Positions 54,757 to 55,420 of a stretch of DNA of 64,000 bases are shown piece by piece. A program made the position numbers and the translations under genes. The notes below the pieces were generated by a model, which saw only the letters and a program-made list of their open reading frames with translations, was not told the DNA's origin and did not search any database. The stretch lies in assembly GCF_000022205.1 (NCBI RefSeq), contig NC_012029.1:1302001-1366000 (forward strand), in the 5' to 3' direction. This stretch comes from Halorubrum lacusprofundi ATCC 49239. Its GTDB lineage: Archaea > Halobacteriota > Halobacteria > Halobacteriales > Haloferacaceae. Each line of letters opens with the position of its first letter. The first letter of the stretch is position 1.

Positions 54757-54786
54757 TCCTTCTTCGCGGCTCTGTTGGGAGTATCC

Positions 54787-55127
54787 GGCTCTATTGAAAT
54801 CCTATTCTTCAAACACATTATCGCCTGAAACAGCCGGTCGGTGGGGACTGCGAACTACACGAGGAGACCTGCAAGAGCAGTTACAGCGATGACCAGTCCA
54901 CCAACTGCTTCTTCGTAATTCCGTTGGTATCCGCTATACGAAGATAGCGCGAGAGAACCAATAGCGGCGACAAGTAGGTGGATCTGTGGAGATGTAATCA
55001 CGTCCACTAATATTCAGATGACCCGTATATATCTTTTCCAAGGCCAGAATCAAAGCGTGAGGCAGATCCTCTGTACTGACCGCAGGGGAAACAATACATG
55101 TCACTTTCTAAGGGTTTCAACAGAGCC
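54787..55127. mobile_element. 341-bp non-autonomous IS6-like element (MITE) with 8-bp target duplication
   Basis: Terminal inverted repeats GGCTCTATTGAAATCCT (54787-54803) and the reverse complement GGCTCTGTTGAAACCCT (55111-55127) differ at two of 17 positions. Perfect direct repeats GAGTATCC (54779-54786 and 55128-55135) flank it. The end sequence resembles the IS6-family consensus GGnnCTGTTGnAAA, and 8 bp is the IS6 duplication size (from memory). No transposase is present. Base composition is visibly more AT-rich than the surroundings. It carries small frames on the minus strand. Confidence 0.8.
54855..55007 (-). CDS. 50-residue membrane peptide inside the mobile element
   Basis: From GTG: VDVITSPQIHLLVAAIGSLA, then LSSYSGYQRNYEEAVGGLVI and AVTALAGLLV. 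Two hydrophobic helices (about 8-24 and 35-50) flank a polar turn. TATATA (55027-55032, minus strand) is about 22 bp upstream, fitting a leaderless start at this GTG or the one two codons later. A preceding 30-codon frame (from 55099, starting MYCFPCGQYRG) ends with TAG overlapping this GTG. Unlike neighbouring genes it is not GC3-rich, consistent with foreign origin. Confidence 0.45.
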   Translation of the reverse strand: MDVITSPQIHLLVAAIGSLALSSYSGYQRNYEEAVGGLVIAVTALAGLLV

Positions 55128-55179
55128 GAGTATCCGTAATTGATCCATTTCCTCCCGGTCCCGATCGATACAGGCACAG

Positions 55180-55420
55180 CGGTGAACGATAGCGGGAGTG
55201 GGTGTTGCTGTTCGTTTGCGACGACAGGGTGTTTAAATAACTGTACGCGACGGTGACGGTCACTTATAAATGACGACGCGGTGGCGTCGCCGGCGGCTTT
55301 GCCGCCGGCTGCAAGCGAGAGCTTCGCTCTCGCCCTGCCGCGAGTCGTCGCGGCTGGGGCTTTAGAAGAGTTCACCGCGTCATCGATGAGTTATAAACAG
55401 TCGATAGCGACACCATTCCA
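55180..55420 (-). repeat. Structured dispersed repeat, copy B (inverted relative to copy A)
   Basis: Read on the minus strand it contains, in the same order as copy A, the GTGAACTCTTCTAAAGCC segment, the 36-bp identical block (55303-55338), GCCGGCGACGCCACCGCG, TTTATAAGTGAC, a TATTTAAA box and CAACACCCACTCCCGCTATCG. It lacks about 160 bp of the copy A core. CGATAGCG occurs at 55187 and 55402. A GTG frame starting at 55375 runs through it but looks like repeat sequence, not a gene. Confidence 0.7.

Follow-up and report, generated by a model that had tools for sequence, protein, structure and literature searches.

We propose that the 341-bp element at positions 54787-55127 of the window (the whole stretch analysed, 64,000 nucleotides of Halorubrum lacusprofundi DNA, 1302001-1366000 of a 2,735,295-bp contig in a genome of three contigs) very probably belongs to a group of IS5-family transposons, as a gene cassette without a transposase. 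The elements that share its ends appear, from their sequences, to be widespread mobile cassettes in haloarchaea, with one fixed gene slot whose content differs between cassettes and is most often a tiny membrane protein. We observed conserved ends, target site duplications (TSDs), an empty site in relatives, cargo shared between elements up to an abrupt breakpoint at a common motif, and intact transposase genes.

Direct reading of the sequence places the element between perfect 8-bp TSDs (GAGTATCC, 54779-54786 and 55128-55135). Its 17-bp terminal inverted repeats (TIRs), GGCTCTATTGAAATCCT at 54787-54803 and GGCTCTGTTGAAACCCT at 55111-55127 on the minus strand, differ at 2 positions; a repeat search of the window returned the same pair, and the TIR pattern, with up to three mismatches allowed, occurs at only these two places in 64 kb (0.03 expected). 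On the length, the duplication and the TIRs, the first-pass annotation was therefore exact. In the family orientation, from left end (LE) to right end (RE), the element reads on the minus strand. The 57-bp LE, of cassette type A by alignment, spans 55071-55127 on that strand (77% identity to the cassette LE consensus), and its inner part is the slot motif GCGGTCAGTACAG at 55071-55083, which marks the left cargo boundary and has its counterpart right after the transposase stop codon of autonomous relatives. The RE, 67 bp with family-wide conservation, lies at 54787-54853 on the plus strand and is 76-85% identical to other sites of the genome.

Both flanks recur without the intervening element in other genomes of the genus. 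Once the element and one GAGTATCC are removed, the joined flanks align gap-free across the junction, from GAGTATCCGTAATTGAT to ACGTGTCCGTAGGTGAG, to locus L147 of genome G009 and, less closely, to L141 of genome G004, and the empty site of these relatives would carry a single copy of the 8 bp. The first-pass annotation had proposed looking for such empty sites, and they bear out its reading of a transposed element with an intact TSD. It had also taken a TIR-like GGCTCTGTTGG at 54768-54778, outside the left duplication, as a hint of nested or preferred targeting; the sequence is present, but it aligns to native flank in L147 and L141 (TTTCTGTCGTA, TTTCCGTCGAA) and is thus ancestral flank and not a second element end. 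On the other side, at 55182-55339, strong palindromes (CGGCGGCTTTGCCGCCGG, GCGAGAGCTTCGCTCTCGC) stand between TTATAAA boxes in a dispersed repeat that has many copies in the genome and the genus and a related sequence at the orthologous place in relatives; an Rfam search of this repeat gave nothing above the gathering threshold.

The ends of the element have about 40 further matches in the same genome, and its interior as a whole does not recur there. We assembled 141 stretches from 73 haloarchaeal genomes (20 from this genome, 60 end loci from other Halorubrum, about 40 from other genera and 20 further), paired inverted ends by script, and tested each pair for an 8-bp TSD with at most one mismatch, the control being the positions 12 bp further out. 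A TSD was found in 50 of 150 pairs and in none of the 150 shifted controls. This yielded 49 distinct TSD-flanked elements of 278 to 2784 bp, 12 with transposase homology and 37 without, a ratio that is not an unbiased census since the loci were picked by RE similarity. The 17-bp TIR and the 8-bp TSD occur in both sorts of members, with the transposase-bearing ones coming from several genera, and the RE was found in 97 of 292 genomes of the class and in 34 of 77 genera. In an alignment of 29 elements, conservation extends over ~70 bp at the RE and ~57 bp at the LE and drops abruptly inside, while the RE of the three 1193-bp elements of this genome matches the family RE over the last 20 bp only. 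Two identical 462-bp copies stand at different sites of the same genome.

The 37 distinct elements without transposase homology correspond to mobile insertion cassettes, with insertion sequence (IS) ends and a passenger gene, and many of them carry recognised gene families; for the window copy the passenger gene is only probable. The MITE label given earlier holds in that the element is short, TIR-bounded, TSD-flanked and devoid of transposase; the reading as a plain MITE is not supported, given a family with diverse genes and a window copy with a two-transmembrane type of open reading frame (ORF).

The cargo is indeed diverse. In the same genome, elements with family ends include a 462-bp one with a 69-aa membrane ORF and a 487-bp one with a DUF6176 protein, next to transposase-bearing members of 1804 bp, with a PGF-CTERM protein, and 1193 bp, with an 88-aa membrane ORF. 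Across the family, Pfam matches comprise RidA, TrkA_N/C, Mrr_cat, SBF, M48, DUF7387 with HicA and redoxin, as well as trypsin-like, PQQ, DUF5518, DUF7534, DUF6653 and DUF3592 proteins, each in one member only; the transposase-less elements hold unrelated genes in one slot, including an SBF transporter, TrkA, an Mrr nuclease and proteases. Among elements below 800 bp, 13 of 16 carry an ORF with at least two predicted transmembrane segments, where dinucleotide-shuffled interiors lead one to expect 0.055. A shared cassette promoter in one end is ruled out by cargo orientation (18 one way, 17 the other); across the family, there is a rise in A+T between positions -30 and -22 relative to the cargo start codons, which we interpret as the pattern expected of cargos that bring their own promoters. 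PADLOC on 53 cargo ORFs returned scattered single matches, largely to Mrr-type nuclease models, and no evidence of mainly defence cargo. The DUF7387-HicA pair resembles a toxin-antitoxin module lying between mobile ends, in a cassette of another genus (L189, 2713-3401). In L199, the passenger slot holds a second transposase-like ORF of 227 aa, probably a nested IS.

In the window copy, the candidate cargo is an ORF on the minus strand at 54855-55007, of 50 aa from a GTG at 55007 or 48 aa from a second GTG at 55001, hydrophobic and with two predicted transmembrane segments. A TATA-like box, GATATATA, at 55026-55033 on the same strand, ~22-28 nt upstream of the ORF start, could serve as a leaderless promoter, and with the second GTG it would fall at about -28. 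The AlphaFold model of the single sequence, built without an alignment, is one long helix (mean pLDDT 86) and carries no information on a hairpin. No homologue was found in 52 Halorubrum genomes or in phages, so that coding status is judged from composition only. The ORF is probably a gene and would be expressed as a small membrane protein. A less likely, though credible, reading sees in the window copy an ordinary IS5-group MITE that codes for nothing and whose 50-aa ORF arose by chance, the gene-carrying relatives forming a separate class. The lack of homologues and the GTG start agree with it, as do other very short members (278, 307 and 344 bp) that show no convincing ORF. Against this, only 12 of 8000 shuffles of the interior gave a comparable hydrophobic ORF (p ~0.0015), the same property recurs in the short relatives far beyond expectation, and the window element has the identical layout, slot motif included.

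The layout itself points to how cargo could move between elements. The transposase stop codon is directly followed, in most of the elements that have one, by GCGGTCARTACAG or a close variant (stop at 874, TCARTACAG at 879), and the same motif lies in cassettes at 49-57 from the tip, that is, ending 57 nt from it. Cargo hence fills the same interval, from the motif to the RE, in both. Autonomous members are ordered as LE, transposase (nt 53-874), GCGGTCARTACAG, passenger gene and RE, and cassettes as LE joined directly to the motif, then passenger and RE. Two LE types exist, A ending in GCGGTCAGTACAG, as in the window, and B in ATCGCTCAGTACAG, and their motifs match successive units of a ~25-bp repeat after the transposase stop in the 1804-bp element. 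Many unrelated passengers are found on these two backbones, which have either motif unit A or motif unit B, and this argues for exchange of cargo between elements.

Individual pairs illustrate the breakpoint. The 489-bp cassette L107 has a counterpart of another genus in L172, a transposase-bearing element on plasmid pHTIA of Halorhabdus tiamatea: the two are 96% identical in DNA between nt 53, which lies in the motif, and the right tip, and to the left of nt 53 they diverge. In L172 itself, an ISH3-family insertion splits the transposase gene. The membrane-protein cargo of the 477-bp cassette L106 belongs to the same family as that of the transposase-bearing L206 and L194 (dN 0.13-0.15, dS 0.45-0.50, dN/dS ~0.26-0.33), and plasmids of archaeon DL31 and H. 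lacusprofundi have 100% identical copies of the 487-bp DUF6176 cassette. It is unlikely that each cassette instead arose by an independent deletion of the transposase gene from a passenger-carrying IS, with no exchange between backbones. Transposase-bearing elements with passengers do exist, and L129, as a deletion derivative should, retains the transposase gene's 5' end, but the junction position is common to many cassettes (motif at 48-51), and L104 and L125 have unrelated cargo between nearly identical LE and RE; separate deletions would not lead to this. Under cargo exchange, passengers would be swapped with the motif and the RE as the two exchange points, and homologous recombination, suggested by the breakpoints, would be the simplest mechanism. 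A bolder and rather doubtful proposal makes GCGGTCARTACAG, together with the inner boundary of the RE, a site dedicated to cargo exchange; the family would then be an archaeal counterpart of gene-cassette systems, in which transposable backbones are continually loaded with new genes, chiefly for small membrane proteins possibly acting in virus exclusion or conflict.

As to the transposase, the first-pass annotation had called the element IS6-like and had suggested a search for full-length elements with its TIRs. These exist and encode an IS5-family enzyme and not an IS6 one. The 1193-bp relatives, in three copies 99.9-100% identical, encode a 273-aa DDE transposase (NF033579 at 222.6 and 210 bits for a cut-off of 140, PF01609 also matched), the exact TIR of the window element is common to the IS5-family elements of the genome, and this transposase has six intact copies there. 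Mobilisation by an IS6-family transposase is accordingly very improbable: archaeal IS6 TIRs also begin with GG, many IS6 members have 8-bp TSDs (PMC6807381, PMC7986276), and MITEHarch3, known here by its listing and not its sequence, is filed under IS6 in ISfinder (PMC6807381), but the five IS6-family transposase copies above cut-off in this genome sit in elements with other TIRs, GGTCGCGTTAAGTT in four copies and GGCACTGTCTAGTT in one, and the transposases inside elements with the window TIR are the IS5 one. The claim of mobilisation in trans is supported by inference, since the window element has no transposase; relatives with the same ends exist. We propose a model in which an IS5 transposase from an intact copy elsewhere in the genome would recognise the 17-bp TIRs and move the cassette, whose insertion would create the 8-bp duplication; the shared TIR and TSD are what suggest this enzyme.

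Elements could also grow through the use of outer ends. In L081, L110 and L121, a whole cassette or IS lies inside a larger unit that also has a further gene and an outer end; their outer TSD matches, and the 8 nt beside the inner left end do not match it, which indicates that the larger composite unit moved as a whole. As read from these composites, such movement gives a putative route to larger cargo. At nt 1116 of L110, the inner cassette lies inside a TIR that belongs to a second cassette in inverted orientation, and L129 has a TIR-like TSD (GCTCTATT); insertion into family ends may therefore occur elsewhere, though not at the window site.

Altogether, this family could be a concrete vehicle for the traffic of small genes between haloarchaeal genera. 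Its cassettes may account for some of the orphan small membrane proteins of haloarchaeal genomes, elements filed as MITEs may be coding, and the shared breakpoint makes the loading of cargo into transposons a testable question. The open literature searched, a scope with subscription papers and ISfinder outside it, gave no paper with the family end sequence and no description of the cassettes. In H. lacusprofundi, a 2023 paper reports the PGF-CTERM protein Hlac_3088 as a transposon passenger whose gene is expressed during virus infection (PMC10544981); judging by its PGF-CTERM domain and adjoining transposase, this transposon is most likely the 1804-bp relative at C1:341790-343593. That paper treats one transposon only, and none of the papers found describes the family, its fixed slot or the cassettes that lack a transposase.

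By its sequence organisation, the family matches the mobile insertion cassette with transporter IS (tIS) partners, tIS having been defined in the ISsaga paper (PMC3129680). The best-known case, IS231/MIC231 of the Bacillus cereus group, likewise combines modular, passenger-carrying IS with transposase-less cassettes having the same ends (PMC2266710), but it is bacterial and belongs to the IS4 family, whereas the family described here is haloarchaeal, of the IS5 family, with an 8-bp TSD and often membrane-protein cargo. According to a 2008 review of IS4, no such modular, passenger-carrying organisation had been seen beyond the IS231 group (PMC2266710); haloarchaea now show it in a group of the IS5 family, where one fixed slot takes tens of cargo types. 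The Tn3-derived TIMEs are also transposase-less, and paired copies move the intervening DNA (PMC4133298), which recalls the composites L110 and L121, but they differ by their Tn3 family, 38-bp inverted repeats, 5-6 bp TSD and Pseudomonas host. HqIRS32, an ISH2-type MITE of Haloquadratum, is haloarchaeal and transposase-less, and its short ORF is reported to be expressed in Halobacterium (PMC3119063); compared by description and not by ends, it differs in being one element type, the other MITE families there being non-coding. The nearest named transposases, compared by transposase alone, are those of the haloarchaeal IS5 elements ISH28, ISH19 and ISHma10, at 47%, 46% and 41% identity to the one here, and are more distant than those within the group (mostly 78-100%).
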